The notes below the pieces were generated by a model, which did no database searches, was not told where the DNA came from, and saw only the letters and a program-made list of their open reading frames with translations. DNA of 64,000 nt from Nonlabens sp. (GTDB lineage Bacteria; Bacteroidota; Bacteroidia; Flavobacteriales; Flavobacteriaceae): assembly GCA_020630715.1 (NCBI GenBank), contig JAHDIQ010000002.1, positions 248,001-312,000 of the forward strand, written 5' to 3'. Positions within the stretch are counted from its first letter, which is position 1. Every line of letters starts with the position of its first letter. A program made the position numbers and the translations under genes. Below, one piece after another: positions 877 through 59,978 of the stretch.

Positions 877-2589
877 ATGGATAAAGAGACGATTATTAAA
901 ACAGCGCAATCCTGGACTCAAGAACCGTTTGATCAGGAAACTAGAACACAATCACAACAACTTATAGATGCAAACAGTGATGATCTTGCAGAATCTTTCT
1001 ATAAAGACTTAGAATTTGGTACTGGCGGAATGCGCGGTATTATGGGCGTAGGAACTAATCGCATCAATAAATATACCTTAGGTAAAAACACGCAAGGACT
1101 TGCACAGTATTTAAAAGAGCAATTTCCTAATGATGCCCTTAAGGTTGCAATAGCCTATGACTGTCGTCATAATTCTAAAGAATTAGCGCAAATCGTTGCA
1201 CAAGTTTTAAGTGCAAATAATGTACACGTTTTCTTATATCCAGAGTTAAGACCTACTCCATTACTATCCTACACGGTAAAAAGAAAAAACTGCCACGCAG
1301 GAATTGTACTTACAGCAAGTCATAATCCGCCAGAATATAATGGTTATAAAGTCTACTGGCAAGATGGTGGGCAATTAGTACCACCACATGATAAAGCATT
1401 GTTAAGCACGATTAATGATCTGGATTTTAGCGATATTAACTTTAATCATAATGATGATTTAATTGAATATCTAGATGCTAGTGATGATCTAGCCTTTATA
1501 GAAGATAGCATTAAAACCGCACGTATTGCAGGCGATGTAGATCGTAGCAGAATCAAAATAGTATTTACTAGTTTGCACGGTACCAGTATCACCATGATTC
1601 CAGAAACCTTGAAACGCGCTGGATTTACAGATTTACACGTGGTAAAAGAACAAGCGCTACCAGATGGTGATTTCCCTACTGTTGATTCTCCTAATCCGGA
1701 GGAACCAGCAGCACTTAAAATGGCCGTTGATCTAGCAAATAAAATCAATGCAGATATTGTTATAGGAACAGATCCTGATTGCGACCGTTTAGGAGTTGCT
1801 GTGCGAGATACAGATGGTAATATGACTTTATTAAATGGGAATCAGACCATGATTGCCATGACAGATTTCTTATTGAAGCATACTAATTTAAAAGAAAAGG
1901 AACATCCTTTTATAGGATCTACCATTGTTTCAACACCTATGATGCACGACCTTGCATCACATCACCAGATAGAATGTAAAGAAGAATTAACTGGATTCAA
2001 ATGGATCGCAAAAATGATCGAAGATTATCCAAATCAAGATTTCATAGGTGGCGGCGAGGAAAGTTTCGGCTATATGGTGGGCGATTTTGTAAGAGATAAA
2101 GATGCAGTTACCGCAGCTTTACTGGCTTGTGAGATGTACGCTTTCGCGAAAGCGAAATCCTCAACAATCTACCAAGAATTATTACAGTTATATGTAGATC
2201 ATGGATGCTATCAGGAACGACTGGTATCACTAGTCAAAAAAGGAATCTCTGGCGCGACAGAAATCAAGCAAATGATGATCAATTTGCGCGAAGATACTCC
2301 TAAAACAATAGGAGAAAAAGATGTGATTATCGTGGAAGATTATGCATCTAGTACTAGATTCAATAAACACTTAAACACCACAGAAACATTGGACATCCCT
2401 AAGTCAAATGTATTAATCTTTTACTTAGCAGATGGATCTAAAATCGCTGCACGACCTAGTGGTACAGAACCTAAAATTAAGTTCTATATATCTGTTAAAA
2501 AGGATTTAGATCATGTAGATGATTATCCTGCCGTTAAACAAGAATTAGAAACTAAAATTGACCAGATTTTAAAGTCATTTGACCTATAA
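877..2589 (+). CDS. phospho-sugar mutase (phosphoglucomutase/phosphomannomutase)
   Basis: This cytoplasmic enzyme moves phosphate between C1 and C6 of hexose phosphates and feeds glycogen or cell-envelope sugar nucleotides. The alpha-D-phosphohexomutase motifs are all visible: TASHNP with the phosphorylated Ser148, the metal loop DPDCDR at 299-304, the sugar-binding loop GGGEES near 391-396, and the phosphate-binding RPSGTEPK starting at Arg526. At 570 residues it fits the long PgcA/PGM2-like branch. The palindrome at 2140-2153 is read in frame as AFAKA near residue 423. The next gene starts 3 bases after the stop, so an operon with the ABC exporter is likely. Confidence 0.93.
   Translation: MDKETIIKTAQSWTQEPFDQETRTQSQQLIDANSDDLAESFYKDLEFGTGGMRGIMGVGTNRINKYTLGKNTQGLAQYLKEQFPNDALKVAIAYDCRHNSKELAQIVAQVLSANNVHVFLYPELRPTPLLSYTVKRKNCHAGIVLTASHNPPEYNGYKVYWQDGGQLVPPHDKALLSTINDLDFSDINFNHNDDLIEYLDASDDLAFIEDSIKTARIAGDVDRSRIKIVFTSLHGTSITMIPETLKRAGFTDLHVVKEQALPDGDFPTVDSPNPEEPAALKMAVDLANKINADIVIGTDPDCDRLGVAVRDTDGNMTLLNGNQTMIAMTDFLLKHTNLKEKEHPFIGSTIVSTPMMHDLASHHQIECKEELTGFKWIAKMIEDYPNQDFIGGGEESFGYMVGDFVRDKDAVTAALLACEMYAFAKAKSSTIYQELLQLYVDHGCYQERLVSLVKKGISGATEIKQMMINLREDTPKTIGEKDVIIVEDYASSTRFNKHLNTTETLDIPKSNVLIFYLADGSKIAARPSGTEPKIKFYISVKKDLDHVDDYPAVKQELETKIDQILKSFDL
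2140..2153. repeat. palindrome GCTTTCGCGAAAGC, copy 1 (in phosphomutase)
   Basis: Perfect 14-bp palindrome within coding sequence, read in frame as AFAKA. Confidence 0.95.
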
Positions 2590-2592
2590 TTA

Positions 2593-4416
2593 ATGAATTA
2601 CTTTAAAGAAATACTTAATTACGGGCGACCTTATAAAAAATGGGCGGTGCTTAACATTATTAGTAATGTTCTTTACGCACTTTTTAGCACACTATCATTT
2701 GTCTCTCTAATGCCTGTATTGCAGGTATTATTTAATGAAACAAAAGAAGTGTATACAAAACCAGTATGGCAAGGAGTGACAAAGACTCAAGATTACTTGC
2801 AAGGTAACGTCAATTATTACGTATCAGAATATGCAAAGGATGATCCTAGCCAGGCATTAATCATGATGATCGTTCTAGTCTTAAGCATGTTTTTTCTAAA
2901 AAATCTATTTGGTTATTTAGGGATGTATTTTATGGCTTTTTTACGTAATGGTATGCTTAAAGATTTACGCGATGACTTGTATCATAAAATCATCAACCTA
3001 CCTATATCATTTTTCTCTGAAAAACGTAAAGGTGACACCATTGCTCGTGCGACAACAGACGTGAATGAAATTCAATCCAGCTATTTATCCATTCTAGAAT
3101 TGATTGTAAAAGAACCGCTAAATATTCTTTTCGCATTAATTGCGATGTTTATGTTTAGCATCAAATTATCCTTGTTTGTGCTTATTTTCATTCCTGTTTG
3201 TGGTTACATTATATCTGCTATAGGTAAGAAATTAAAAAGCAAATCAGAACGAGTTCAACGTACTCAAGGATTAGTATTATCACAACTAGAAGAAATGCTA
3301 GGCGGATTAAACGTGATTAAAGGTTTCAATGCAGAGGAACGTATGCAGGATTCTTTTGAAGAAACTACCAGCAGATTTAGCAAATATTCCATCAGTCTTT
3401 CTAAACGTAAAAGTATGGCGAGTCCAGTAAGTGAGGTATTAGGTATTGCCGTAATAGGATGTTTACTGTGGTTTGGTGGAAATATGGTATTGGTAGAAGG
3501 TACCTTGTCTAATTCTACATTTTTAGGTTTTATGGGGTTAGCTTATGGGATCCTAGCACCAGCTAAAGTTCTTGCAAAAGCCAGTTACGGCGTTAAAAAA
3601 GGAAATGCAAGTGCAGAGCGCGTTTTAAGCATTCTGCATACTGAAAATACGATTGAGGATAAGCAAGATGCTGTGGATATTTCTGCTTTCGCGAAAGCGA
3701 TCTCCATCAACAACATCACATTTGCCTATGAAGAAGAAGCTGTTCTCAAAGACTTCTCACTAGAAATCCCAAAAGGAACCAGCGTTGCTTTAGTAGGACA
3801 ATCCGGAAGCGGTAAAAGTACGATTGCTAATTTATTGACTCGGTTTTATGATGTAAACCAAGGAACCATTACCATAGATGATCACAATATTAAAGACGTT
3901 AGTTTAAAAAGCCTGCGTGATCAAATGGCGATTGTAACCCAAGATTCTGTGTTATTTAATGACACGATTGCCATGAATGTTGCCCTAGCAGATAAAAACG
4001 CAAGTGATGAACAGGTGATAGAAGCACTTAAAATTGCTAACGCTTGGGAATTTGTAAAAGAATTACCAGAAGGTATTCACACTAACGTAGGTGATAGTGG
4101 TGGCAAATTAAGTGGCGGACAAAAACAACGACTTTCTATCGCAAGAGCTGTTCTTAAAAATGCTCCTATCTTAATACTGGATGAAGCTACCAGCGCGCTA
4201 GACACAGAAAGTGAACGACTGGTGCAAGACGCACTAGAAAATGTGATGAAGAATAGAACTTCTATCATCATCGCTCACCGCTTATCTACTATTCAAAATG
4301 CAGATAAAATCATAGTCATGAACCGCGGTGAAATTGCAGAACAAGGAACGCATGAGGAACTGATCGCACAAGATGGAATCTATAATGGTCTTGTAACCAT
4401 GCAAAGTCTAAGCTAG
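2593..4416 (+). CDS. ABC transporter, fused permease-ATPase (MsbA-like exporter)
   Basis: This 607-residue half-transporter has an N-terminal six-helix membrane domain (about residues 15-340) and a C-terminal ATPase. Walker A GQSGSGKST is at 402-410, the signature LSGGQ at 506-510, and Walker B ILILDEA contains Asp530 and Glu531; the H-loop His is in IIAHRLST. The layout fits the homodimeric lipid/lipid A or multidrug exporter subfamily in the inner membrane. It sits 3 bases after the phosphomutase and 2 bases before the pseudouridine synthase gene. The palindrome at 3685-3698 codes AFAKA in the linker just before the ATPase domain. The substrate cannot be told from sequence. Confidence 0.92.
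   Translation: MNYFKEILNYGRPYKKWAVLNIISNVLYALFSTLSFVSLMPVLQVLFNETKEVYTKPVWQGVTKTQDYLQGNVNYYVSEYAKDDPSQALIMMIVLVLSMFFLKNLFGYLGMYFMAFLRNGMLKDLRDDLYHKIINLPISFFSEKRKGDTIARATTDVNEIQSSYLSILELIVKEPLNILFALIAMFMFSIKLSLFVLIFIPVCGYIISAIGKKLKSKSERVQRTQGLVLSQLEEMLGGLNVIKGFNAEERMQDSFEETTSRFSKYSISLSKRKSMASPVSEVLGIAVIGCLLWFGGNMVLVEGTLSNSTFLGFMGLAYGILAPAKVLAKASYGVKKGNASAERVLSILHTENTIEDKQDAVDISAFAKAISINNITFAYEEEAVLKDFSLEIPKGTSVALVGQSGSGKSTIANLLTRFYDVNQGTITIDDHNIKDVSLKSLRDQMAIVTQDSVLFNDTIAMNVALADKNASDEQVIEALKIANAWEFVKELPEGIHTNVGDSGGKLSGGQKQRLSIARAVLKNAPILILDEATSALDTESERLVQDALENVMKNRTSIIIAHRLSTIQNADKIIVMNRGEIAEQGTHEELIAQDGIYNGLVTMQSLS
3685..3698. repeat. palindrome GCTTTCGCGAAAGC, copy 2 (in ABC exporter)
   Basis: Perfect copy inside the coding region, read in frame as AFAKA at the linker between the membrane and ATPase domains. 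Confidence 0.95.
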
Positions 4417-4418
4417 TA

Positions 4419-8033: not shown

Positions 8034-8047
8034 GCTTTCGCGAAAGC
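8034..8047. repeat. palindrome GCTTTCGCGAAAGC, copy 3 (divergent intergenic)
   Basis: Perfect copy in the intergenic region between the divergent BNR lipoprotein and RsmB-like genes. Confidence 0.95.
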
Positions 8048-11404: not shown

Positions 11405-11418
11405 GCTTTCGCGAAAGC
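11405..11418. repeat. palindrome GCTTTCGCGAAAGC, copy 4 (intergenic)
   Basis: Perfect copy 21 bases after the endonuclease stop. The symmetry extends further with TTAC before and GTAA after. Confidence 0.95.
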
Positions 11419-12763: not shown

Positions 12764-12900
12764 ATCTCGACAATTCGACATGCTCAGTGAGACGCTATCG
12801 CTCCATCTCGACTGTCGCTCCATCTCGACTGTCGCTCGATGTTCGCTTAGGCAGAATATTCCAGTTCGAGCGAAAGCGATATGTTGAGTTTACCGAAACG
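12764..12900. repeat. left repeat cluster of the GIY-YIG island
   Basis: This non-coding stretch holds several copies of the module CTCGACTGTCGCTC and a relative of the TTCGACAnGCTCAG repeat. It includes the left copy (12818-12872) of a 55-bp sequence repeated exactly at 13814-13868. The open frame through here is an accident of the repeats. Confidence 0.85.
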
Positions 12901-13313
12901 TCGAGAACGGTCTATGTTTTTCTATACCTCAGTTTCTTAGGAACATATTCTGATGATGCAAAAGCACTAAAGCCGGACGCTCAATAATGCTACTCAATTC
13001 CAGTTCGAGCGAAAGTCGAGAACGGTCTATGTTTTTCTACACCTCAGTTTCTTAGGAACACATTCTGATAATGCAAATGCTCTAAAGCCGGACGCTCAAT
13101 AATGCTACTCAATTCCAGTTCGAGCGAAAGTCGAGAACGGTCTATGTTTTTCTACACCTCAGTTTCTTAGGAACACATTCTGATAATGCAAATGCTCTAA
13201 AGCCGGACGCTCAATAATGCTACTCAATTCCAGTTCGAGCGAAAGTCGAGAACGGTCTATGTTTTTCTACACCTCAGTTTCTTAGGAACATATTCTGATG
13301 ATGCAAAAGCACT
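12901..13313. repeat. 115-bp tandem repeat, about 3.6 copies
   Basis: The unit begins TCGAGAACGGTCTATGTTTT and starts at 12901, 13016, 13131 and 13246, exactly 115 bases apart. Copies 2 and 3 are almost identical. Copies 1 and 4 share variant bases (CATATTCTGATGATGC). The last partial copy runs into the 3' end of the GIY-YIG gene. Confidence 0.93.
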
Positions 13314-13610
13314 CGTGCTATCATTCTGACAGGACGCTAGCCACTTTAATCGGTCAAAATCACCATTTGCTAGTGCTAATTTTTTAGCTTTTGACCAGCG
13401 TTTAATTCTCCTTTCATAATGTAAGGCTTGAAAGACGTCATTAAACACTTCGTGAAATAGGAGTTTAACAGGTCTTCGTTTGTAGGTGAATGCCTTTTTA
13501 TACTTCCCTGATTGGTGTTCTTCTAGCCTGCGCTCGATGTCTGTAGTGAAACCTGTGTATAATAGATCATCATTGCATTTTAAGATGTAGACGTAGAATT
13601 GATAGTTCAT
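13257..13610 (-). CDS. small GIY-YIG nuclease domain protein
   Basis: This 117-residue protein carries a GIY-YIG endonuclease-like fold (UPF0213/YhbQ type). The motif pair is YVYILKC and LLYTGFT, followed by DIERRLEEH and HYERRIKRWSKAKK. The core of about 85-90 residues matches the usual family length. The last 20 or so residues are encoded by the final copy of the 115-bp tandem repeat and are probably not conserved. It stands alone between two repeat arrays and 55-bp direct repeats, which suggests that it spreads with, or acts on, these repeats. That role is inference. Confidence 0.85.
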   Translation of the reverse strand: MNYQFYVYILKCNDDLLYTGFTTDIERRLEEHQSGKYKKAFTYKRRPVKLLFHEVFNDVFQALHYERRIKRWSKAKKLALANGDFDRLKWLASCQNDSTSAFASSEYVPKKLRCRKT

Positions 13611-13651
13611 GAGTGGAATTTAGGGGTTTTTAATGACATTGACCATATCTC

Positions 13652-13795
13652 GACTGTCGCTCGATATTAGAATGGATCAACATCTTTGACTATCGCTCGA
13701 TATTAGAATGGATCAACATCTTTGACTGTCGCTCGATATTAGAATGGATCAAAATATTTGACTGTCGCTCGATGTTAGTAATTATAAACAAACTT
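13652..13795. repeat. 36-bp tandem repeat, 3 full copies plus a partial one
   Basis: The unit begins GACTGTCGCTCGATATTAG; copies start at 13652, 13688, 13724 and 13760, exactly 36 bases apart. There are no unique spacers, so this is not a CRISPR array. Confidence 0.92.
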
Positions 13796-13813
13796 AATTA
13801 ATAACGGCTATCG

Positions 13814-13868
13814 CTCCATCTCGACTGTCGCTCGATGTTCGCTTAGGCAGAATATTCCAGTTCGAGCG
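13814..13868. repeat. right copy of 55-bp direct repeat flanking the GIY-YIG gene
   Basis: These 55 bases are identical and in the same orientation to 12818-12872. Similarity continues for about 25 more bases with changes. The pair encloses about 940 bases containing both tandem arrays and the nuclease gene. Confidence 0.9.
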
Positions 13869-14147: not shown

Positions 14148-17100
14148 ATGATCCATTTTTTCGGCGATGCAGGTACTAAGGTATATGCAGTTCAAACACA
14201 GCAAGAATTATCACAAGAAGACCTTTCTAAACTTATCTGGTTGCTAGGCGATGTGCCTAGAATTGAGGCAGATGCAATACCTGGAACATTTACTGGTCCA
14301 CGTGCAACTACCATAACGCCATGGTCTACAAATGCTGTAGAGATTACCCAAAACATGCAAATCAATGGTGTACAGCGTATTGAAGAATTCAACTGTTGTA
14401 AACCTGATGCTCACTATGACCAGATGCTACTGGTTAAAGTAGATGGACTGGATCAATCCCAATTTGACATCAACGTATCACCAGACGACATTCTAGAAAT
14501 TGAAGACATTGCGGCTTATAACATGCAAGAAGGTCTTGCGCTGAGTGATGACGAAATTGATTACCTCATCACCTTATCAGAAAAACTAGGACGTAAATTA
14601 ACAGACAGTGAGGTTTTTGGCTTTTCACAAGTGAATTCAGAGCATTGCCGTCATAAGATCTTTAATGGAACTTTTATCATAGATGGTGAAGAACAACCTA
14701 CATCGCTTTTTAAACTGATTAAAGAAACGAGCAAGCAACATCCTAACGAGATCGTTAGTGCGTACAGTGATAACGTGGCATTTGTAAACGGTCCAGAAGC
14801 CGAGCAATTTGCGCCAGCTAGTGCAGATCAACCTGATGTATATCAAACGTCGCTTTTTGACAGTGTGATTTCCCTAAAAGCCGAAACACACAACTTCCCT
14901 ACTACCGTGGAACCTTTTAATGGTGCAGCAACTGGATCTGGCGGAGAAATACGCGATCGCCTCGCTGGTGGACAAGGCTCACTACCACTAGCAGGAACAG
15001 CGGTGTACATGACTAGTTACTCTAGATTAAATGATCAACGTCCATGGGAAAAAGCCTTTAAAGCTAGAGAATGGTTGTATCAAACGCCATTAGATATTTT
15101 AATAAAAGCTAGTAATGGTGCTAGTGATTTTGGAAACAAATTTGGCCAGCCACTCATTACAGGATCTGTATTGACTTTTGAACATGATGAACATAATGAT
15201 GCCGCTTTGCACGCAAATGTCACCTCGAGCCCTTCGACAAGCTCAGGAGAGTCCGCAGTCGATAGGTCTCAGAGCGAAGGAGAGAATGCCACGTCGCAAG
15301 CTCCTCGTTACCTAGGTTTTGACAAAGTAATCATGCAAGCTGGTGGAATAGGTTATGGTAAAAAAGATCAAGCCTTAAAGAAAACACCAGATGCTGGCGA
15401 TGATATCATCGTTATGGGTGGTGATAACTACCGCATAGGAATGGGTGGCGCTGCGGTAAGTAGCGCAGACACTGGTTCTATGGATAGCGGTATAGAACTC
15501 AACGCCGTACAACGTTCTAATCCAGAAATGCAAAAACGCGCTGCAAATGCCATACGTGGTATGGTAGAAAGCAATAACAATCCTATAAAATCCATTCACG
15601 ATCACGGCGCTGGCGGACACTTAAACTGTCTATCAGAACTAGTAGAAGAAACGGGTGGCGTTATTAACGTAGATGCCTTACCTGTAGGAGATCCTACCCT
15701 ATCACGCAAAGAACTGATAGGTAATGAATCCCAAGAACGTATGGGACTGGTCATGGAACCTAAGGATACACCTATGCTAGAACGTATCGCACAACGCGAG
15801 CGTGCACCATTATATAAAGTAGGAACGGTAACAGGTGATAACAAATTTGTTTTTAGCGAGAAAGATGGACGCAGTCCTATGGATCTAGCGCTAGAAGACA
15901 TGTTTGGCAGTAGTCCTAAAACCATCATGGATGATCAGACCATTGACAGACTATACGATGCGGTGCCTTATGATGGTAAAGATTTTAAACTCTATTTATA
16001 TAACGTATTACGCCTAGAGGCCGTTGCCTGTAAAGACTGGCTTACTAATAAGGTAGACCGTTGCGTCACCGGTCGTGTTGCAAAACAACAAACCTGTGGT
16101 GAATTACAGCTACCGTTAAATAACGTAGGTGTTATGGCGATGGATTATAACGGTAAGAATGGAATAGCGACTACTATAGGTCACGCACCAGTAGCAGCCT
16201 TAATAGATCCAGCAGCTGGTTCTCGCAATGCGATTGCAGAAGCGCTGACTAATCTGGTTTTTGCACCGCTGGAAAAAGGACTAGCTGGCGTGAGTTTAAG
16301 CGCTAACTGGATGTGGCCGTGTAATAATCCAGGAGAAGATGTCCGACTATATAATGCTGTAAAAGCAGTGAGTGATTTTGCTATTGAATTAGGTATCAAT
16401 GTTCCTACAGGTAAGGATAGCCTGAGTATGAAGCAAAAATATCCAGATAAAGATGTACTATCGCCAGGTACCGTGATCATTAGTACGGTAGGATCTTGTG
16501 ATGCTATTTCTAAGGTAGTAGAACCAGTACTGCAACGCAATGAAAATGCGCCTATTTACTACATTAACATGAGTGGCGACGATCATAAATTAGGTGGTTC
16601 CAGCTTTGCTCAAACACAAAATAAAATAGGTGCAGCGTGCCCTACGATTGTGGATAGTGCCGCTTTCGCGAAAGCGTGGACAACAATACAATCATTGATA
16701 AAAAGTGGCAAAGTGCTAGCCGGACATGATGTTGCCAGTGGTGGATTAATCACGACATTATTAGAAATGTGTTTCCCATCACTAGGCGTAGGAATGGAAC
16801 TGGATCTAGCCGCAATAGGTGACGATATGGTCAAAATATTATTTGCAGAAAACGCAGGTATCGTACTCCAAGTAACAGATGACAGCGTAGCCACCGAATT
16901 AACAGCTACCGGAATCCCATTTTTCAAGATAGGAACCGCGATAGATGAAGCCGTGCTAGATATCAATGACTTTACCATAGACGTGGATGATATGCGCGAT
17001 GTATGGTATGAAACCTCGCATTTACTAGATCAAAAACAATCGTTTAATGGTCTGGCAGATGAACGCCTAGTAAATTATGTAGAACAACCGCTAGAATTCA

Positions 17101-23244: not shown

Positions 23245-24666
23245 ATGAAAAAATTAATAATTCTCTTAATTACGCTATTTCTCACAGTAGCCTGCAAGAA
23301 TAATGAAAACTCAAAAAATAATCCTGCGTTTGAAGTAGTAGAAAATGATAAAACGCAACGATTAGATTCTGTTTACACAGCGCATTTTATTAGAAACGAA
23401 TTCAACGGTAATATCCTTTTAGCAGAAAAAGGCAAAATTATATTTCAAAAAAGCTATGGAATTGCTAACGAAGAGACTGGTGAGAAATTGAATATTGAGA
23501 CCGCTTTTGAATTAGCATCTGTCTCAAAACAATTTACCGCGATGGGAATTGTACAACTGCAAAAAGAAGGAAAGCTTTCTTATAGTGACCCGATCAGTAA
23601 GTATATACCAGAACTGAAACACTATTCAGATGTTACCATAAAGAATCTATTAACACACACTGGTGGCTTACCGGATTATATGAGTATGATGGAAGACAGC
23701 TGGGACAAATCTAAAATAGCCACAAATAAAGATGTGATTAACGCTTTCGCGAAAGCGTCTCCAGAAAAGCAATTTGAGCCCAATCTAAAATATAGTTACA
23801 GCAATACTGGATATTTAGTACTGGGTACTATTATAGAAAGAGTTAGCGGAAAATCATTTGAAGACTACTTAAATGAAAAGATTTTTTCACCATTAAAAAT
23901 GGAAAACACCTTTGTTTATCGCAGACGGTTTCAGCCAAAAAAGGTCGACAACTATGCACAAGGATACATTTATTCAGATAGCTTAAAGCGAAATATCGTA
24001 CCAGACGAATCCCCAGAAGATGATTATGTCGTTTATTTAGACGGTATTGTTGGTGATGGAATGGTGAACTCTACTATTATTGACTTGCTTAAATGGGATA
24101 GGGCACTATATGACAACCAACTCGTAAACGAAGAAGACAAAAAATTAATTTTCTCGTCCTATCCTACAGATAGTGGTGTAGAAACTAGTTATGGATTTGG
24201 ATGGATGGTTAGAAATGATAGTCTATATGGTAAAAGAGTTATTCATACAGGTCGTTGGGCTGGATATTTGACAATTATTGAAAGACACATAGATACTGAT
24301 AAAACAATCATACAACTTATGAATGTTGAAAACAAAATCACAACCAGTCCAGCTAAATTTGCACGAAAGATTTTGTATGACCAACCTATAGAGAAACCCT
24401 TTGAATTGCCTGAAGAAATACTCAAAAAATATGTAGGAACGTATAGTTGGGACGGACAAGAATCTGAGATTACGTTTGAATTTGGAAGTCTTTGGGATAG
24501 CGGTCAGTTTGAATTAAGACCAATTTCAAAGACCAAATTTGTCGTTATTGGTTACAGACCACAAGTTACTTTCACGTTTAACTTAGATGAGGTTGGCTCT
24601 GTAAAAAGTTACAGAGTACAACAAAAAGAAAACGATATTGATAAGACTTATATTCGAGAAAATTGA
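23245..24666 (+). CDS. serine hydrolase, class C beta-lactamase family lipoprotein
   Basis: The N-terminus MKKLIILLITLFLTVAC gives a lipobox at Cys17, so the protein should be membrane-anchored. The catalytic SxxK is in ELASVSKQFTAMG, the Tyr motif is YSYSNTGY, and HTGRWAGY is the third box. This is the AmpC/D-alanyl-D-alanine carboxypeptidase/esterase fold. A C-terminal beta domain of about 90 residues follows the catalytic part. The palindrome at 23743-23756 reads AFAKA in the NAFAKASPEKQ loop. Family members act as esterases or peptidases as well as lactamases; no resistance role can be claimed. Confidence 0.88.
   Translation: MKKLIILLITLFLTVACKNNENSKNNPAFEVVENDKTQRLDSVYTAHFIRNEFNGNILLAEKGKIIFQKSYGIANEETGEKLNIETAFELASVSKQFTAMGIVQLQKEGKLSYSDPISKYIPELKHYSDVTIKNLLTHTGGLPDYMSMMEDSWDKSKIATNKDVINAFAKASPEKQFEPNLKYSYSNTGYLVLGTIIERVSGKSFEDYLNEKIFSPLKMENTFVYRRRFQPKKVDNYAQGYIYSDSLKRNIVPDESPEDDYVVYLDGIVGDGMVNSTIIDLLKWDRALYDNQLVNEEDKKLIFSSYPTDSGVETSYGFGWMVRNDSLYGKRVIHTGRWAGYLTIIERHIDTDKTIIQLMNVENKITTSPAKFARKILYDQPIEKPFELPEEILKKYVGTYSWDGQESEITFEFGSLWDSGQFELRPISKTKFVVIGYRPQVTFTFNLDEVGSVKSYRVQQKENDIDKTYIREN
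23743..23756. repeat. palindrome GCTTTCGCGAAAGC, copy 6 (in serine hydrolase)
   Basis: Perfect copy in the serine hydrolase gene, read as AFAKA. Confidence 0.95.
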
Positions 24667-27826: not shown

Positions 27827-28732
27827 TTATATTTCAAACACAGCTCCATCACGAGCTAACTCTACCTTATCAAAAACCTCCTGAGCCTCTTTACGGAATA
27901 ATTCATAATCACCGTATCTAGTAGAATAATGACCTAAAATCAACGTGCCTACTTGTGCTTCTCTCGCGATCGTAGCCGCTTGTGCAGCGGTGCTATGCTT
28001 AGTCTTGACGCATAAATGCTCGTGTGACTTTAAAAAGGTAGACTCATGATATAATACGGTAGCGTTTTTAACTAACGGTACAATATCTGGTTTATAAGCT
28101 GTATCACTACAAAAAGCATAACTTCTAGACGGTTGTGGATCATCGCTTAACTCATGATTTGCAATCACGCGACCATCATCCAGCGTAACATCTTCTCCTT
28201 TTTTAATCTTTCTATAATAAGCGATATCAACGCCGTACTCTTCACATGCAACTACGTTTAACTTGCGCTGGTAACCTTTCTCTTGAATTAAAAAACCTCT
28301 AGTATACACGCGATGATCTAACGGTATGGTGGTAACAATCACCTTTTCATCCTCGTAAAGCAATTCTGGTGTCGTGGCATCGCTTTCGCGAAAGCGTAAT
28401 TCAAACGGCGTATAACTACCGGTTAATTTTAATTGTAATAAAATGATTTCTTTAATGCCTTTAGGTCCATAAATAGTCAAAGGTGCATCGCGACCTAGCA
28501 AACAAAATGTAGAAATCATACCGATCAATCCAAAGAAATGATCACCATGCAAATGCGAAATAAAAATATGCTTAATACGTGCAAACTTCACTCGGTTTTT
28601 ACGCAGTGCGACCTGAGTACCTTCACCACAATCGATCATGAATAAATGACCACGCACTTCTAGTACTTGCGAAGTAGGATTTGTGGCCGCAGTAGGCGTT
28701 GCACTATGACAACCTAAAATGGTTAGTTTCAA
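27827..28732 (-). CDS. rnz: ribonuclease Z
   Basis: RNase Z trims the 3' end of tRNA precursors. The metallo-beta-lactamase motif HLHGDH contains His60, His62, Asp64 and His65, and FCSDTAYKPD and GHYSTRY complete the metal site. The 301-residue length is typical. The conserved N-terminus MKLTILGCHSATP begins at a TTG codon (28730-28732) with no in-frame ATG nearby, so a TTG start is likely. The palindrome at 28382-28395 is read as RFRES in the ELRFRESDATTPE loop. Confidence 0.95.
   Translation of the reverse strand: MKLTILGCHSATPTAATNPTSQVLEVRGHLFMIDCGEGTQVALRKNRVKFARIKHIFISHLHGDHFFGLIGMISTFCLLGRDAPLTIYGPKGIKEIILLQLKLTGSYTPFELRFRESDATTPELLYEDEKVIVTTIPLDHRVYTRGFLIQEKGYQRKLNVVACEEYGVDIAYYRKIKKGEDVTLDDGRVIANHELSDDPQPSRSYAFCSDTAYKPDIVPLVKNATVLYHESTFLKSHEHLCVKTKHSTAAQAATIAREAQVGTLILGHYSTRYGDYELFRKEAQEVFDKVELARDGAVFEI
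28382..28395. repeat. palindrome GCTTTCGCGAAAGC, copy 7 (in rnz)
   Basis: Perfect copy in rnz, read in the frame that gives FRES. Confidence 0.95.
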
Positions 28733-29302: not shown

Positions 29303-30540
29303 ACGATCTGATGATTTTCAATTTTGGCAATGATGGCTTTTGCGGCAGCTTTACCATTTAACATCGCAGCATTTAAGCTACCGTTACTTAAGTGATCACC
29401 AGCTAGAAAAACATGCTGTGTTAATTGAGTCTCTGTTTCGCTCATGCAGTATTGTAAACTATCCAGTTGTGGTAATGCTTTATGGATCGTAATCTCGTGC
29501 AGTAAATCACCTAGCTCAATATTAGCTTGTGTTGACAGTTCTTCACGTACTTGATTAGTAAGATCTTCTAGCGATAAGTTGTGCTTTTTTACAATGGTAA
29601 CACTTACCACTTTATCATGATTAGGAATACAATCATTTAAAAAATGAAAGTTATTACTTAGACAGTTTTCTCCAGCTATTAAACCTATAATAGGTGTCTT
29701 AAAACCTACCACGTTTGTAGCAAAATATAAAGTCTGTACGCTATGCCATTTACGATCTGATTTTGGTAGGTTAGGAATAAGTGATGCAGCCTCTGTAGCG
29801 ATGATGGTGAAATCACTTTGTAATTGTGTGCCGTTTTTTAATTTGATCTGATCATTTAGGACTTGATCTACCGCAGTATTTAATTGAATATCACCATTTA
29901 ATTGAGTCGCCATTTGCTGTGGTATGGCTTGAATTCCTGATGCTGGAAGCGTAGCATTACCTTGCGTAAACATTTTGAACACAAATTCAAACATGCGACT
30001 GCTCGTTGCTAGATCTGGTTCTAGGAATATTCCAGTATAGAATGGTTTAAAAAATTGATGGATAATCTGGTCAGAAAAACCGTAGTTTTTTAAATATTCT
30101 AGTGTTGTTTGCTCCTCGGTCGTAAAGATATCATAGAGGCTTTTTTGAGTAAGCTTTCGCGAAAGCGTAAACACTAACCACTTATCTCTTAACGATCCTA
30201 TTCCTGCTACTAAAGTAGGTATGGCAAAGTCAAAATCACGTCTAGGATCACCTATTTTATGAGAGACTCCATCCTTAAAAATCATGGATCCTGGAACAAA
30301 TTTCTTTAAATCTAATGTTGTGGTGTCAATAAATTCTGAAACTGCTGGATAAGCATCTAGCATTACTTGAAAACCGTGATCATAGATATTTCCATCTTTA
30401 ATAGTCGTAGCAACACGTCCACCTATGTGATTACTAGCTTCTAAAATTGTGGCGTTATATCCGGCTTTTTCAAGCGTCATAGCTGCAGCAAGACCGCTCA
30501 CGCCAGCACCTATAATATGAATGGATGGTTGATGATTCAT
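29299..30540 (-). CDS. NAD(P)/FAD-dependent oxidoreductase (amine oxidase / phytoene desaturase-like)
   Basis: This 413-residue flavoprotein has an N-terminal FAD-binding Rossmann motif, IIGAGVSGLAAAMTLEKAGY, ending in the acidic residue of ILEAS, then a GGR motif (HIGGRVATT). The C-terminus has the second FAD contact VFLAGDHLSNGSLNAAMLNG. This is the amine oxidase/carotenoid desaturase superfamily; substrate unknown. The palindrome at 30153-30166 is read as LSRK in FTLSRKLTQ. Confidence 0.88.
   Translation of the reverse strand: MNHQPSIHIIGAGVSGLAAAMTLEKAGYNATILEASNHIGGRVATTIKDGNIYDHGFQVMLDAYPAVSEFIDTTTLDLKKFVPGSMIFKDGVSHKIGDPRRDFDFAIPTLVAGIGSLRDKWLVFTLSRKLTQKSLYDIFTTEEQTTLEYLKNYGFSDQIIHQFFKPFYTGIFLEPDLATSSRMFEFVFKMFTQGNATLPASGIQAIPQQMATQLNGDIQLNTAVDQVLNDQIKLKNGTQLQSDFTIIATEAASLIPNLPKSDRKWHSVQTLYFATNVVGFKTPIIGLIAGENCLSNNFHFLNDCIPNHDKVVSVTIVKKHNLSLEDLTNQVREELSTQANIELGDLLHEITIHKALPQLDSLQYCMSETETQLTQHVFLAGDHLSNGSLNAAMLNGKAAAKAIIAKIENHQIV
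30153..30166. repeat. palindrome GCTTTCGCGAAAGC, copy 8 (in FAD oxidoreductase)
   Basis: Perfect copy in the FAD oxidoreductase gene, read in the frame that gives LSRK. Confidence 0.95.
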
Positions 30541-31504: not shown

Positions 31505-32323
31505 ATGAAACATATTTCTAGTCCTAACAACGCCATTATACGTAAGGTAGAGCAATTGCAACGCAAGAGTAAAACTCGTAAGCAATTAGGTCTTTTTATT
31601 GTAGAAGGACAGCGTGAAGTACAATTATGCTATCGTGGTGGTTTTACGTTAGAAACACTATTTATCTGTGGTGAGATTTTACTGGACAAGACCGACTTTA
31701 CAGAACTTGAGGTCTATGATCATCTTAAATTAGAACAGCAACCAGAAATCATAAGCGTTACTGTAGAGGTATACGAGAAAGTAGCATACAGATCAGGTAC
31801 AGAAGGTGTTATCGCTATAGCGAAAGCAAAACCCCAACATCTCAACGATTTAAAATTATCATCTACTCCACTCATCCTCATCGCAGAATCTGTAGAGAAA
31901 CCTGGAAATATTGGTGCGCTATTGCGTACTGCAGATGCAGCTAAAGTTGATGCCGTTATCCTAGCAAATCCTGTAGCAGATTTATATAATCCTAATGTCA
32001 TAAGATCTAGTGTAGGTTGTGTTTTCACCGTGCCCGTTGCCACAGCATCCACAGCAAGTGTGATCACTTATTTAAAGGAACACAACATTAATTTATACGC
32101 TGCTACCTTACAAACCAGTACTCGATATGATCGTATGAATTTTAAGAAATCTTGTGCCATCGCGATGGGAACTGAAGCTACTGGACTTACAGATGAAATG
32201 AGAGCAGCAGCTATAGAAAATATCATCATTCCTATGAGTGGTGCTATAGATAGCATGAACGTTTCTGTTAGCGCGGCGATACTGCTTTTTGAGGCAAAAA
32301 GACAGCGTGATTTCTTACAATAA
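31505..32323 (+). CDS. TrmH/SpoU-family RNA 2'-O-methyltransferase
   Basis: This SPOUT enzyme of about 272 residues should methylate ribose 2'-OH in rRNA or tRNA. The three SpoU motifs are visible: ESVEKPGNIGALLRTADA, AMGTEATGLTDE and IIPMSGAIDSMNVSVSAAI. The N-terminal substrate-binding part (about residues 1-95) is present. Two adjacent ATG codons exist (31502 and 31505). The next gene starts 55 bases after the stop, with its own promoter. Confidence 0.92.
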   Translation: MKHISSPNNAIIRKVEQLQRKSKTRKQLGLFIVEGQREVQLCYRGGFTLETLFICGEILLDKTDFTELEVYDHLKLEQQPEIISVTVEVYEKVAYRSGTEGVIAIAKAKPQHLNDLKLSSTPLILIAESVEKPGNIGALLRTADAAKVDAVILANPVADLYNPNVIRSSVGCVFTVPVATASTASVITYLKEHNINLYAATLQTSTRYDRMNFKKSCAIAMGTEATGLTDEMRAAAIENIIIPMSGAIDSMNVSVSAAILLFEAKRQRDFLQ

Positions 32324-33683: not shown

Positions 33684-34112
33684 TTATTTCAATCGTTCCC
33701 AGGTTTGAGTGCGGTATAAGAACATGATATATCCACGTACCATCAATAGGTCTGGATTATCCTCATTTACCCAAATTTTACAATCGTACACTTTCCCATT
33801 TTCAGGATCCATGATCGTTCCATCTTTATAAGAACTGCCTTTCTTTTTAAGATTTTTGATAATTTCTAAACCTTCTATCGGTGCGTCTTTTAAATCACCT
33901 TCGCAATTAACGCATAACGGTTTTGCTGGCGCATCTGGATCCAGCACTTTAAGTACTTTTCCATAGAATGATCCATTTTTTTCATAGATCTCTACATGAG
34001 ATTTTACGATGCCTGTTTCTTCATCTACGGTTTTCCAGACTCCAGTAACTTGTTGTGAATACGCTTTCGCAACAGCGAAACACATGAACAATACTATTAT
34101 TACATTTCTCAT
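33684..34112 (-). CDS. DUF2147 domain secreted protein
   Basis: The 142-residue product has a signal peptide (MRNVIIVLFMCFAVAKAYSQ) and a DUF2147 body: GVWKTVDEETG at the start, then LCVNCEGD, and YRTQTWERL at the end. It should be periplasmic; the family fold is lipocalin-like and its function is not settled. The signal peptide is partly coded by a degenerate palindrome at 34063-34080. Confidence 0.88.
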   Translation of the reverse strand: MRNVIIVLFMCFAVAKAYSQQVTGVWKTVDEETGIVKSHVEIYEKNGSFYGKVLKVLDPDAPAKPLCVNCEGDLKDAPIEGLEIIKNLKKKGSSYKDGTIMDPENGKVYDCKIWVNEDNPDLLMVRGYIMFLYRTQTWERLK

Positions 34113-34769: not shown

Positions 34770-35699
34770 CTAACTATTCAAATTCTGTGCCCTTAATTTA
34801 CGTAATGATGCATTTAACTCAAAACCTAACAGTAAAACGTTAGAATTGAGCCAGATATAAATCATTAAAATTAACAACGCGCCTATGGATCCATAGATTT
34901 CATTATACGATGTAAAGTTATCTATATAAACACCATATAACATAGACAGTAGAATGATTAATAATGTCGTAACCGTTGCACCTATGGATAAAAACTTTGT
35001 CTTACGACCATCACGTGTTCCTGTATAATATAAGGTTGCAACAAAAATATAGGTAAGTACGATAAGTACCGCGTATCGCAATATGATATAAGCCGTTCCA
35101 CCACCATTTGTGCTCATAATATCTCTACTGCGCAGTTCTTCTAGCACATATTCTATATATCCCGTAACGGCTACCATAATTAATAAAAACAAAGTAAGCA
35201 TTACAGATACGGCTAGTGCCACCGCATATTGTCTAAAAAAACCACGATTTAATTCAATATGATAGGAACGTTCAAAGCCATTAAAAACAGCATTCACGCC
35301 ATTAGACATAAAAATTAAAGACGATATAAATGCAATTGTTAGTAATCCAGAATTACCTTGCAGGGCAATTTCTTTAAAGATGGTTTCAAAAATAGTCACT
35401 GCTTGCGCTGGTAGTAAGTTATTGACAAATTCCAAAAATTCATTCTGAAAGTTTTCAATAGGCACAAACGGAATCAAGTTTAAGGTAAATAGCAAAAATG
35501 GAAATAAGGCCATGAAGAAGCTATAACTAATGGCACTAGCTCTAGCGCCAAAAGCACCTTGTGCAATTCCCACCACATAGGTTTCTGCCACGTCATAAAG
35601 TGACATTCCTTCTAGACCAGGAATCTTAATTTTATGCGACCATTCCACTACCTTATTTAATACCGGTATGCGATCAATAAAGGTATTAGTTTGCTTCAT
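34770..35699 (-). CDS. YihY/BrkB family inner-membrane protein
   Basis: This 309-residue protein has six likely membrane helices and the YihY pattern RASAISYSFFMALFPFLLF early, with YGSIGALLILMIYIWLNSNVLL late. Family members are inner-membrane proteins of uncertain transport function, once called tRNA-processing ribonuclease BN in error. The ATG lies inside the end of nadC (14-base overlap), so it is co-translated with it. Confidence 0.9.
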   Translation of the reverse strand: MKQTNTFIDRIPVLNKVVEWSHKIKIPGLEGMSLYDVAETYVVGIAQGAFGARASAISYSFFMALFPFLLFTLNLIPFVPIENFQNEFLEFVNNLLPAQAVTIFETIFKEIALQGNSGLLTIAFISSLIFMSNGVNAVFNGFERSYHIELNRGFFRQYAVALAVSVMLTLFLLIMVAVTGYIEYVLEELRSRDIMSTNGGGTAYIILRYAVLIVLTYIFVATLYYTGTRDGRKTKFLSIGATVTTLLIILLSMLYGVYIDNFTSYNEIYGSIGALLILMIYIWLNSNVLLLGFELNASLRKLRAQNLNS

Positions 35700-36558
35700 G
35701 CACTGCTTTGAGACTTAAATCTAGGTTATACACACTATGTGTTAATGCACCACTTGAAATGAAATCCACACCACATTCTGCATAATGTCTTGCGGTCTCT
35801 AGAGTAATTCCGCCACTGCTTTCCGTAAGACATTGATCACCTATTAATGCCACAGCCTTACGAGTATCCTCATAATTAAAATTATCAATTAGGATGCGAT
35901 ACACGCCATCATTTGTAAGTATTTCTTTGATTTCATCTAGATCACGTGCTTCTACAATGATCTTTAAATCTCGTCCAGTTTCCTTCAAATATTGATGTGT
36001 TTGCTGTATCGCTTTACTTACGCCACCTGCAAAATCGATGTGATTATCCTTTAACATGATTACATCATATAGTCCAAAACGATGATTCACGCCACCACCT
36101 ATTTTAACTGCCCATTTCTCTAGTAACCTGATTCCAGGCGTGGTTTTACGCGTATCTAGTATTTTGGTTTTTGTACCTTCTAATAAATCCACAAAACTTC
36201 TGGTCTTTGTAGCGATAGCGCTCATACGTTGCATGGCATTTAGTGCCAATCGCTCTGCTTTTAAAATGGATTGCGAGCTACCTGATACGTAAAAAGCAAT
36301 ATCACCGTGCGTTACAGATGCTCCATCTTCTAGTAATGTTTCTATTTCTAGGTTAGGATCGACTGTTTTAAATACCGCTTTCGCGAAAGCGACACCAGCA
36401 AGAATCCCTGTATCTTTAACCAGCAAACGTGCTTTACCAGTTGCCGCTGCCGGAATACATGACAAACTACTATGATCACCATCGCCTACGTCTTCACGTA
36501 AGGCATTATCAATGATGCGTTGTAATTCTTCATGAAATTCTGGACTGTTGTAAATCAT
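35686..36558 (-). CDS. nadC: nicotinate-nucleotide diphosphorylase (carboxylating)
   Basis: Quinolinate phosphoribosyltransferase turns quinolinate and PRPP into nicotinate mononucleotide in NAD synthesis. DTRKTTPGIRLLEKWAVKIGG and DVIMLKDNH are hallmark motifs. The length of 290 residues is slightly long. The palindrome at 36377-36390 gives GVAFAKAVFK in the N-terminal domain. No nadA or nadB is nearby. The TATTTTTG box at 36578 supports the ATG at 36558. Confidence 0.95.
   Translation of the reverse strand: MIYNSPEFHEELQRIIDNALREDVGDGDHSSLSCIPAAATGKARLLVKDTGILAGVAFAKAVFKTVDPNLEIETLLEDGASVTHGDIAFYVSGSSQSILKAERLALNAMQRMSAIATKTRSFVDLLEGTKTKILDTRKTTPGIRLLEKWAVKIGGGVNHRFGLYDVIMLKDNHIDFAGGVSKAIQQTHQYLKETGRDLKIIVEARDLDEIKEILTNDGVYRILIDNFNYEDTRKAVALIGDQCLTESSGGITLETARHYAECGVDFISSGALTHSVYNLDLSLKAVHEAN
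36377..36390. repeat. palindrome GCTTTCGCGAAAGC, copy 9 (in nadC)
   Basis: Perfect copy in nadC, read as AFAKA. Confidence 0.95.
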
Positions 36559-37138: not shown

Positions 37139-37475
37139 TTAGAATTTGGAACTTGGAACTTGGAATTTGAAACTTCTAAGTTCTCGACTGTCGCTCAAAG
37201 TGAGCTTTTGGTTAGGTTGATCATGATAAAATTTGAACCTTAAACCTTTAACCACAATTTGATTAATGATTTTTGATTTGAGAACTTGGAACTTGGAACT
37301 TGGAATTTGGAATTTGAAACTTCTAAGTTCTCGACTGTCGCTCAAAGTGAGCTTTTGGTTAGGTTGATCATGATAAAATTTGAATCTTAAACCTTTAACC
37401 ACAATTTGATTAACGATTACCGATATTTGATTTTGGAACTTGGAATTTGGAATTTGAAACTTGGAACTTAATCCT
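37139..37475. repeat. 147-bp tandem repeat with TTGGAACTTGGAA tracts
   Basis: The shared landmark TTCTCGACTGTCGCTCAAAG occurs at 37181 and 37328, exactly 147 bases apart. The unit also holds GAACTTGGAACTTGGAATTT runs and TTAACCACAATTTGATTAA. It shares the CTCGACTGTCGCTC module with the 12.8-13.9 kb island. The open frame through it is not a real gene. Confidence 0.9.
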
Positions 37476-40678: not shown

Positions 40679-40692
40679 GCTTTCGCGAAAGC
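40679..40692. repeat. palindrome GCTTTCGCGAAAGC, copy 10 (convergent intergenic)
   Basis: Perfect copy between convergent genes, with GTAATA following. Confidence 0.95.
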
Positions 40693-43769: not shown

Positions 43770-43783
43770 GCTTTCGCGAAAGC
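43770..43783. repeat. palindrome GCTTTCGCGAAAGC, copy 11 (intergenic)
   Basis: Perfect copy 27 bases beyond the ndk terminator. Confidence 0.95.
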
Positions 43784-47035: not shown

Positions 47036-47049
47036 GCTTTCGCGAAAGC
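47036..47049. repeat. palindrome GCTTTCGCGAAAGC, copy 12 (intergenic)
   Basis: Perfect 14-mer 18 bases after the gldI stop; the outer flank is degraded on one side (CATAG instead of CGTAA). Confidence 0.95.
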
Positions 47050-51146: not shown

Positions 51147-51160
51147 GCTTTCGCGAAAGC
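51147..51160. repeat. palindrome GCTTTCGCGAAAGC, copy 13 (intergenic)
   Basis: Perfect copy between pepD and the DUF5723 gene, preceded by TTAC. Confidence 0.95.
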
Positions 51161-54253: not shown

Positions 54254-54254
54254 A

Positions 54255-55575: not shown

Positions 55576-55631
55576 AAATAGATTTTGTATAAAGATACCT
55601 ATTATTAAAAATGGTTGCGTGTAATAACAAA

Positions 55632-55657
55632 AAAGCACCACTAAAAAAGTGATGCCT
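55632..55657 (-). terminator. terminator after ferredoxin gene
   Basis: On the minus strand GGCATCACT pairs with AGTGGTGC around a T-rich loop with one mismatch; a T-run follows. Confidence 0.65.
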
Positions 55658-55681
55658 TCTAAAACTTATATTAATAACTAC

Positions 55682-56032: not shown

Positions 56033-56044
56033 AGCTGTTTTCTT

Positions 56045-56052
56045 TACTTTTG
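56045..56052 (+). promoter_or_regulatory. -7 promoter box of the acyl-CoA reductase gene
   Basis: TACTTTTG lies 17 bases before the TTG start at 56070, two bases from the opposing box at 56055. Confidence 0.55.
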
Positions 56053-56054
56053 CA

Positions 56055-56062
56055 CAAAAATA
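56055..56062 (-). promoter_or_regulatory. -7 promoter box of the ferredoxin gene
   Basis: Minus-strand TATTTTTG lies 22 bases before the ferredoxin ATG. Confidence 0.55.
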
Positions 56063-56069
56063 ATGCCCA

Positions 56070-57176
56070 TTGAACTCACAGGCAATTAATAGCACGTTAA
56101 ATGATAGGATTTCCGCTTTCGCGAAAGCAGGATCACAACTATCTCATTACCTAAAACAAGACGGTTCTCTACCCAAATCTGTAGTGGAACAAATAGACGC
56201 TGCCTTACACCTAACGCGAATTAAGAATAGCTGGTTTGACACCGAAAACATACACCACGCCGTTGCACAATGGTCACAAGCACTTACTACAAAGGCTTTA
56301 CAAGAATGGATGGAACCATACCACATTTCTAATATCACTAGCAAAACAATTGGAATTATCACTGCTGGTAACATTCCCTTAGTAGGATTTCACGATGTTT
56401 TAAGCGTTATTTTAGTAGGTCATCACGCACTGATTAAAAATTCTAGTAACGATGATGTACTTACTAAATTGATATTAGAGCTAGCTACGACAGACTTTCC
56501 TGAGCTAATGACTTCTTACAGTTACATAGATGGTAAATTAGAGAATTACGATGCTGTTATCGCTACAGGAAGTAATAATACAGCGCGTTATTTTGAATAT
56601 TATTTTGGCAAGGTGCCTCATATCATCCGTAAGAATCGTAATAGTGTTGCCATAATTTCTGGTGATGAATCGCCAGAAGAAATGGAAGCTTTAAGTGAAG
56701 ATGTTTTTAGATACTATGGTCTAGGCTGTCGCAGTGTGAGTCATATTAAAGTCCCGATAGGATATAATTTTGACCATTTTTTTAATGGAATGTACAAACA
56801 ACGTCACCTCATTAAAAACGAAAAATATGTCAATAATTATGATTACAACAAGGCTGTTTATTTAATGAGTGATTTTGACTTGTTAGATAACGAATTCCTT
56901 TTAATTAAAGAAGAAACAGAAAGTTACTCATCACCTATTGCTAGTGTAGGTTATGCCTTTTATGACAGTACGCTGGATATCATAAATGAATTAAAAACGA
57001 ATGCTGATCAATTGCAATGCGTTGTAGCAGCTGGCAAAATGAAGGAAGTACTTCAAGAACAATTGAAAGAGTTTAAAGCACCACAAGTAGTAGAAAATGG
57101 CATGACACAACAGCCTGCGCTAAATGATTATGCAGATGGTGTGGATACGGTGAATTTCCTGTTGACATTATCCTAA
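56070..57176 (+). CDS. acyl-CoA reductase (LuxC family)
   Basis: This 368-residue protein belongs to the LuxC-type acyl-CoA/acyl reductases, which make aldehydes with [23 protein letters not shown], then [17 protein letters not shown], are cofactor-region motifs, and the catalytic Cys is in [10 protein letters not shown]. No ATG is available upstream; the frame starts at TTG 56070, right after an in-frame stop. The palindrome at 56115-56128 reads AFAKA in [12 protein letters not shown]. No luciferase genes are nearby, so bioluminescence is not implied. serC follows 73 bases later. Confidence 0.87.
56115..56128. repeat. palindrome GCTTTCGCGAAAGC, copy 14 (in acyl-CoA reductase)
   Basis: Perfect copy near the 5' end of the acyl-CoA reductase gene, read as AFAKA. 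Confidence 0.95.
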
Positions 57177-57249
57177 AAATTTTAAGATTTCATAACCTCA
57201 AACGGCTGTTATTAATGCATTTTTGTTATGCACTTATAATAGTATCACG

Positions 57250-58308: not shown

Positions 58309-58483
58309 TGAACTCGAAATTGAACTCGAACTCGAATTGAATTGAATCATCGTAAGACAGATAACTAATCATAATTGATAAATAACAATTAACTGATAAC
58401 AATTAACAAATCAACAGTTTGCCTTCTCACAAAGCTACGCGCAATGGACAAACAGCTGGCAACTGATAACTGAAAACTTAATT

Positions 58484-59443: not shown

Positions 59444-59448
59444 ACTAA

Positions 59449-59940
59449 ATGGATAACAACGATATTTTACGACGCCTGCGCTACATTCTCAATCTAAGTG
59501 ATGATGCGATGATTGATATGTATAAAAAAGGTGGTGCACCGGTTACTAGGTCAGAAATTAGTGATTACCTTAAAAAAGAAGAACATCCAGATTTTGAAGA
59601 AGTCGTAGATGTTAATCTAGCGACATTTCTAAATGGTGCCATCGTAAACTATCGCGGTAAAAAAGACGGTGAAACTCCAGTTGCAGAGGAACAACTGGAT
59701 AATAATATCATTTTACGCAAATTGAAAATCGCCTTTAATTTTAAGTCTGATGAAATCGTTTACCTCATAAAATTAGGCGGTCAACAAATCACAGAGACTG
59801 AGCTTAGTGCGTTCTTTCGCAGGCCTAGTCACGCAAAGTATAAGTACTGCAATGATCAATACTTACGCACCTTTTTAAAAGGATTTCAAATCCAGCGTGA
59901 TAAACAACGTAAGGCAGAGGCTAGAAAGAAGGATTCTTAG
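59449..59940 (+). CDS. DUF1456 (YehS-like) protein
   Basis: This 163-residue cytoplasmic protein consists of two similar halves, NDILRRLRYILNLSDDAMIDMYKKGG and NIILRKLKIAFNFKSDEIVYLIKLGG, as expected of DUF1456. Each half ends with a basic helix. Function unknown. It lies 5 bases after serA, so is probably co-transcribed. Confidence 0.9.
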   Translation: MDNNDILRRLRYILNLSDDAMIDMYKKGGAPVTRSEISDYLKKEEHPDFEEVVDVNLATFLNGAIVNYRGKKDGETPVAEEQLDNNIILRKLKIAFNFKSDEIVYLIKLGGQQITETELSAFFRRPSHAKYKYCNDQYLRTFLKGFQIQRDKQRKAEARKKDS

Positions 59941-59964
59941 AACGTTTTATCGATGATTTATGAC

Positions 59965-59978
59965 GCTTTCGCGAAAGC
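59965..59978. repeat. palindrome GCTTTCGCGAAAGC, copy 15 (intergenic)
   Basis: Perfect copy 24 bases after the DUF1456 stop, followed by GTAATT; the last copy in the window. Confidence 0.95.

Follow-up and report, generated by a model that had tools for sequence, protein, structure and literature searches.

A highly iterated 14-nt palindrome in Nonlabens and its relatives and its possible role as a self-DNA tag

Copies of the palindrome in the window

The DNA under study is a stretch of 64,000 nt from Nonlabens sp. (GenBank assembly GCA_020630715.1, contig JAHDIQ010000002.1, positions 248,001 to 312,000 of the forward strand), called the window here, and the element of interest is the word GCTTTCGCGAAAGC, a perfect 14-nt palindrome that recurs within and between its genes. 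The original prediction had reported fifteen perfect copies where chance would give about none. Word search recovered all fifteen in place, and dinucleotide shuffles predict 0.00. The window holds zero copies with one mismatch and two copies with two mismatches, GCTATAGCGAAAGC at 31814..31827 and GCTTTCGCAACAGC at 34063..34076; these are the degenerate copies that had been placed at 34063 and near 31818.

Eight perfect copies lie inside genes, with open reading frames (ORFs) called crudely. Six of them are read as the peptide AFAKA: in a phosphomutase gene (2140..2153), an ABC exporter gene (3685..3698), purL (16662..16675, residue 839), a gene for a serine hydrolase of the beta-lactamase fold (23743..23756), nadC (36377..36390), and near the start of a putative acyl-CoA reductase gene (56115..56128). 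The remaining two are read as RFRES in an rnz-like gene of the Lactamase_B_2 family (28382..28395) and as LSRK in a gene for an FAD amine oxidoreductase (30153..30166). All eight peptides agree with those given before. As to the gene names, seven of the eight families are backed by Pfam (phosphomutase, ABC exporter, PurL, beta-lactamase-fold hydrolase, Lactamase_B_2, FAD amine oxidoreductase and NadC), while "acyl-CoA reductase" (56070-57176) is the earlier name of a gene that has no Pfam match at E<=1e-10.

Seven perfect copies lie between genes according to word search and ORF reading. These are the copies at 8034..8047 (probably intergenic, with overlapping crude ORFs there), 11405..11418, 40679..40692 (with convergent genes on either side), 43770..43783, 47036..47049, 51147..51160 and 59965..59978. 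By alignment, the copy at 47036 is identical in an uncultured Nonlabens (G010) and in Nonlabens xylanidelens (G242), with flanks 67-71% identical. Intergenic copies had been said to extend often to TTAC...GTAA. This holds for the right half, since GTAA follows five of the seven; TTAC precedes two, and the complete extension occurs only once, at 11405.

Abundance, placement and spacing across genomes

The original prediction had named a genome-wide count close to that expected from composition as an outcome that would speak against it. The source genome (G000; 2,978,537 bases in 17 contigs) holds 609 perfect copies, about one per 4.9 kb, against 0.0034 expected from base composition, an excess of about 1.8e5-fold and clearly not the outcome so named. 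The reversed control word has 0 copies there. Perfect and one-mismatch forms together number 712, leaving only 103 with one mismatch (0.17 expected), and over-representation thus drops 293-fold on going from perfect to one mismatch. For uptake sequences, which are shorter words and were analysed differently, the published falls amount to 92-fold in H. influenzae and 82-fold in N. gonorrhoeae (PMC1939737).

Overall, the word is abundant in few lineages. It occurs 288 to 857 times in each of the 23 Nonlabens genomes searched, the lowest count coming from an assembly that is 78% complete. Among 397 Flavobacteriaceae genomes from 237 genera, 80 have at least one copy and six have more than 400, namely four Nonlabens, Dokdonia sinensis SH27 (G206, 857 copies) and G190 (408 copies; GC content 47% in sampled stretches). 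The other 74 hold 1 to 19 copies each. Abundance is therefore a property of three of the 237 genera sampled: Nonlabens, Dokdonia and the genus of G190. In a sample of 395 genomes from the phylum the word is present in 22, and members outside the Flavobacteriaceae have at most one copy. A contig search for the word at its place in PurL gave 18 loci, all from Nonlabens or Dokdonia. Viral contigs with the word amount to at least 120 stretches, 109 of the 120 listed having a single copy. When the native words of four non-carriers were inspected (58-69 kb each), none comparable was seen; the top word of one of them, G087, was GCTTTCGCGAAAGC itself, inside an island of that genome. No report of the word was found among the literature matches listed, and the letters TTTCGCGAAA gave only papers judged from their listing to be unrelated.

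A highly iterated palindrome could be coupled to an orphan DNA methyltransferase, in the manner of HIP1 in cyanobacteria. Words of the HIP1 kind are palindromes present in excess; their extensions are palindromic too, and they go together with matching methyltransferases (PMC4390886). We searched 12 carriers for two methyltransferase families, the C5 family PF00145 and the N6/N4 family PF01555. The former had no match in G242, G403, G409 and G190, and the latter none in G000, G242, G394 and G206. Neither family is present in all 12, and G242 has neither. Neither of these two families tracks the word in the carriers searched, and we consider a HIP1-like system improbable.

The placement of the copies was characterised in sampled stretches of seven carrier genomes, using a crude ORF caller; these genomes are related and their counts are not independent. 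Of 118 coding copies, 67 are read as AFAKA, 30 as LSRK and 21 as FRES, which bears out the preferred frame noticed in the window. Several AFAKA copies stand at apparent signal-peptide ends (SAFAKAQ; L122 and L123 from Dokdonia, L017-L034 from other genera), where A-x-A cleavage sites would ease accommodation of the word. In the source genome intergenic copies are strongly enriched: about 9% of the DNA accounts for 16 of 36 copies. Among 68 placed intergenic copies from the seven genomes, 46 lie between tandem, 11 between convergent and 11 between divergent genes. Nonlabens under-uses divergent space, with 5 of 53 copies there. Given this under-use and the lack of convergent bias, a terminator or promoter element was rejected. 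Outward from the word the flanks favour G, any base, A and A, giving the extended form TTnCGCTTTCGCGAAAGCGnAA; this symmetric preference lengthens the palindrome to about 22 bp, and beyond a few bases the flanks of different copies are unrelated. One-mismatch forms in the samples were mostly changed at half-site position 5 or 6 (14 of 16).

In the source genome the copies are also spaced strikingly evenly. For contig C1 (44 sites) together with the window, 57 intervals of the source genome have a mean of 4965 and a coefficient of variation (CV) of 0.45, compared with 0.98 by chance; none of them is shorter than 1 kb, where chance predicts 10.2. Stretches of three further Nonlabens gave a CV of 0.66 and 0 of 42 intervals below 1 kb (6.8 by chance), and Dokdonia gave a CV of 0.47 from nine intervals (P 0.01). 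Two Nonlabens phages, closely related to each other, have 0 copies in 71 kb, where the density of the host predicts 14.6. Long word-free gaps of 16-30 kb are tolerated in another Nonlabens, G397, and we read four of them, a small sample. The first holds Wadjet-like defence genes (JetD, SbcC-like and DUF3375; L276:3244-9296) and RHS-like giants, the second an integrase and a relaxase, the third the ribosomal-protein/secY/rpoA operon, and the fourth RHS-like giants next to a pilus-like operon. The two gaps with the Wadjet genes and with the integrase and relaxase look island-like.

A word with these properties might be a chromosome-organising site, bound every few kilobases by a lineage-specific nucleoid or segregation protein that shapes or marks the chromosome. 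We regard this as the main rival to the explanation by DNA uptake that is developed below, though as a rather unlikely one. It would agree with the palindrome and its extended symmetric flanks, which fit a dimeric binder, with the even spacing in the source genome and its lack of intervals below 1 kb, with a placement that suits neither terminators nor promoters (no convergent bias; divergent space 5 of 53 in Nonlabens), and with the two phages that lack the word. However, abundance in only 3 of 237 genera would be odd for a housekeeping role, G397 tolerates its gaps, and copies lie in core enzymes at positions occupied by other residues in other genera. A Chi-like signal for recombination or repair, served by a reader of the RecBCD/AddAB type and bidirectional through its palindromy, is less probable still. 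With about one copy per 4.9 kb the word is about as dense as Chi in E. coli, and the two phages are again without it. Nevertheless, Chi-type signals are 5-8 nt long and are recognised on one strand and in one direction, unlike a 14-nt palindrome whose symmetry extends over about 22 bp, and the word is absent from most of the family.

Two other features of the window can be recorded here. A serine recombinase gene with a Resolvase domain occupies its end (61763-63451), and GCTTTCGCGAAAGC is missing from 59979 onward. A second, clustered repeat family, CTCGACTGTCGCTC with TTCCAGTTCGAGCG, occurs at 12807-13868 and 37183-37343.

Origin by substitution and places shared between genera

The original prediction had left open whether the word is mobile or selected. 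In PurL from 30 further genomes the alignment around the site is gapless; carriers have AFAKA and non-carriers have, for example, YVKTV, YFKKA or YFAKA. One carrier, G394, keeps the peptide AFAKA with DNA one base away from the word. When 11 coding sites were compared with nine other genomes, homologues aligned through the word and were altered by substitution. Across the 64 resulting alignments, the sole gap inside the five residues is a single residue in one G190 protein, and all other gaps fall outside. For a closer test, five Nonlabens genomes were entered, four of which gave 34 ordered pairs that could be used (22 distinct sites, with flanks <82% identical). The word was identical in 21 of these, had one mismatch in 10 and was diverged in 3, with 0 indels. 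Of 2129 control 14-mers taken from these alignments, 68 (3.2%) were identical, and therefore the word is kept far better than its surroundings, yet it also turns over. Among 17 further sites from Dokdonia and G190, some with small gaps nearby, there was one exception: a second purL copy in Dokdonia belongs to a segment of 24 or more residues missing from three other genera (G190, G191 and G034).

These comparisons show that most copies arose through substitution of single letters and not through insertion. A small element of mobile or repetitive nature, such as a repetitive extragenic palindrome (REP) or a miniature inverted-repeat transposable element (MITE), that inserts itself into genes would account for the high copy number and could be seen in the exceptional purL copy. 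It appears very improbable, given the single one-residue gap in 64 alignments, the 34 Nonlabens pairs that show no indel, flanks unrelated beyond a few bases, and an exceptional stretch far longer than the word. Of the two options, the mobile one is thus not supported. A selected signal tolerated in core enzymes is supported by the large excess, the few one-mismatch copies, the conservation beyond the flanks and the substitution origin.

It had also been proposed that distant genera conserving AFAKA at the same positions would argue against such a signal. We compared 28 coding sites (11 from Nonlabens, 7 from G190 and 10 from Dokdonia) across genera; the choice favoured conserved proteins, and sharing in recN and PurL had already been seen, making the sample non-random. 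Set against other carrier genera, the exact word recurred at the corresponding position in 10 of 69 comparisons (nine places); set against non-carriers, it did so in 0 of 68. In this sample same-place AFAKA is thus limited to genera that carry the word, and its recurrence does not refute the reading as a selected signal. The purL place is common to all three carrier genera, including other Nonlabens, the nadC place to Nonlabens and Dokdonia, and the ABC exporter place to Nonlabens (also G010) and G190. The names of the other shared genes were assigned from their sequences alone: a putative gcvP place is common to one Nonlabens and G190, and places in a putative dapF, a rumA-like gene, recN, a helical protein and a short protein are common to Dokdonia and G190. 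Starting from Nonlabens sites, 2 of 11 were shared with Dokdonia and 2 of 10 with G190; from G190 sites, 4 of 7 with Dokdonia and 1 of 8 with Nonlabens; and from Dokdonia sites, 1 of 10 with G190 and 0 of 23 with Nonlabens.

The history behind this sharing can be read in more than one way. At its shared place recN is merely 37% identical, which favours inheritance or exchange. In dapF and nadC, similar residues occur in non-carriers, so convergence would be eased. The PurL tree sets the carriers apart and requires three changes, while pooled segments yield a tree in which Dokdonia and G190 group together (90.9/88). Separate origins, as suggested by the PurL tree alone, are offset by the pooled tree and by the shared exact places. 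One origin with losses, or exchange, seems to us as likely as separate origins. Over the NadC segment (nadC, window 35686-36558) Dokdonia is unusually similar to the source genome, with 78.5% identity compared with 59.6-72.5% for five others, and this likeness possibly reflects exchange between word-sharing genera.

Copies outside the carrier genera were examined in stretches of 14 of the 74 low-copy genomes (L016 and L017 from G087; L018-L035). Of their 42 copies, 40 lie inside open frames of at least 120 codons. Two places in one efflux-channel gene are common to G087, G101 and G215, which represent three genera, with near-identical flanks, and related places recur in further low-copy genomes. 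In G087 the stray copies are found in a P-type ATPase, a resistance-nodulation-division (RND) pump fused to an efflux channel, an outer-membrane efflux protein, and a putative Fur-like protein named from its sequence (no Pfam match at 1e-8). Judged from these contexts, the stray copies may be cargo of metal-efflux islands moved horizontally from or via a carrier.

A possible self-DNA tag and its relation to known systems

No defined function had been offered for the word. Classes of explanation do exist, among them uptake sequences and HIP1. Our leading explanation, a tentative one, sees in the word a self-DNA tag of the Nonlabens and Dokdonia lineages that resembles an uptake signal and is maintained by biased DNA uptake. 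A dimeric DNA-binding factor of natural transformation would prefer DNA bearing GCTTTCGCGAAAGC (extended form TTnCGCTTTCGCGAAAGCGnAA), and alleles in which a point mutation has created the word would be taken up and recombined more often. Molecular drive would then spread the word and hold it wherever genes and proteins tolerate it. In favour of this explanation are the steep loss at one mismatch, the even spacing in the source genome, the origin by substitution, the conservation beyond the flanks, the symmetric flank preference, the lack of copies in the two phages and in the gaps of G397, and the presence of ComEC. Such drive is described as predicting a fairly even distribution and scarcity in new DNA, rRNA genes and strongly constrained genes (PMC7811141). 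In Neisseria the length of recombined tracts is reported to match the spacing of the uptake words (PMC2397512). Uptake as the driving process, a dimer as the reader and a non-pilus machine of the kind described for Riemerella are inferred. Competence of R. anatipestifer requires ComEC, DprA, ComF and RecA together with four proteins that resemble no known machinery and whose homologues are reported to be common in Flavobacteriaceae (PMC8459023). Riemerella is assigned by its authors to the same family. Riemerella columbina prefers its own DNA, and no functional word is named by the authors in the part of that paper drawn on here (PMC7965970).

We looked at the uptake genes of the carriers. The ComEC family PF03772 was present in 25 of 25 carriers searched, but also in 3 of 4 non-carriers. 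The platform family of type IV filaments and type II secretion systems (T2SS), PF00482, was detected in 76 of the 397 Flavobacteriaceae sampled. In G397 we found a T2SS/type IV filament-like operon (L347:6738-11882 and L278:13-5698) that has most components of such a machine, with a GspF-like gene in which PF00482 was read, a secretin, a GspE/PilB-like gene and pilins, one of which has ComP_DUS as its best Pfam match, below the cut-off (E 4e-4). This operon was rejected as the source of the word's reader, as PF00482 is not carrier-wide (1 of 6 carriers, 75 of 391 others). With the pilus route seemingly closed to most sampled carriers, a pilus-independent uptake bias is preferred.

Several observations weigh against the explanation by uptake. 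Among the six carriers of the family sample PF00482 was detected only in G242; it was not found in G000, G010, G394, G206 and G190 (10 of 14 candidates scored in G000 and 10 of 17 in G010), and a receptor of the known type, a pilin, is thus missing from most. No receptor for the word was found, and genes of the Riemerella type are common also in genomes that lack the word. The uptake sequences described so far are shorter, and none is known to be a palindrome. Natural transformation is not known in Nonlabens or Dokdonia, and the literature matches listed named no case. In G190 intergenic copies are not enriched (4 of 30 copies in about 11% of the DNA) and spacing is not significantly even (nine intervals, CV 0.66, P 0.14). 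The spacing variance of G397 is not below chance either (93 intervals, CV 0.92, null 0.99, P 0.24), owing to its long gaps, though close pairs remain rare, with 5 intervals below 1 kb where 18.3 are expected. Finally, many recent copies in Neisseria have been argued to come from recombination and not from point mutation (PMC2397512).

A fuller version of the uptake explanation, more doubtful than its core, can be sketched: a palindromic Bacteroidota uptake word would be read by a pilus-independent outer-membrane uptake system of the Riemerella type and inherited or exchanged among the three genera, with the stray efflux-island copies as a "passport stamp" of the donor. Two families of proteobacteria, the Pasteurellaceae and the Neisseriaceae, are known to have uptake words (PMC7811141). 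If the uptake explanation is true, a third, unrelated system would be added, palindromic and found in marine Bacteroidota mostly without a pilus platform, and the origin and the reader of uptake words would become testable in harmless marine bacteria. If the word is a chromosome-organising site instead, an abundant architectural protein awaits discovery. Under either explanation the word is a built-in label for following gene flow out of the carrier genera.

Among known systems, the word shares with the DNA uptake sequence (DUS) of Neisseria and the uptake signal sequence (USS) of Pasteurellaceae its hundreds of copies, steep one-mismatch loss and even spacing, as well as a gradual origin by substitution (as argued in PMC1939737), tolerance in coding DNA in preferred frames, and scarcity in acquired DNA and constrained operons (PMC7811141). 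It differs from them in being a perfect 14-bp palindrome, in occurring in Bacteroidota, and in that the filament platform gene was not found in five of the six carriers sampled. With HIP1 and the alternate HIPs of cyanobacteria it has in common high iteration as a palindrome and a palindromic extension (PMC4390886). By contrast, GCTTTCGCGAAAGC is another and longer sequence, and the two methyltransferase families searched are not in all carriers. Chi is likewise chromosome-wide and of similar density, whereas the word is palindromic, 14 nt long and abundant in few genera only. The sites parS and Noc are palindromes of the form TTTC...GAAA. The word may resemble these Noc/ParB sites, but its TTTC and GAAA stand two bases closer together, and it is present in about 600 copies rather than in tens.

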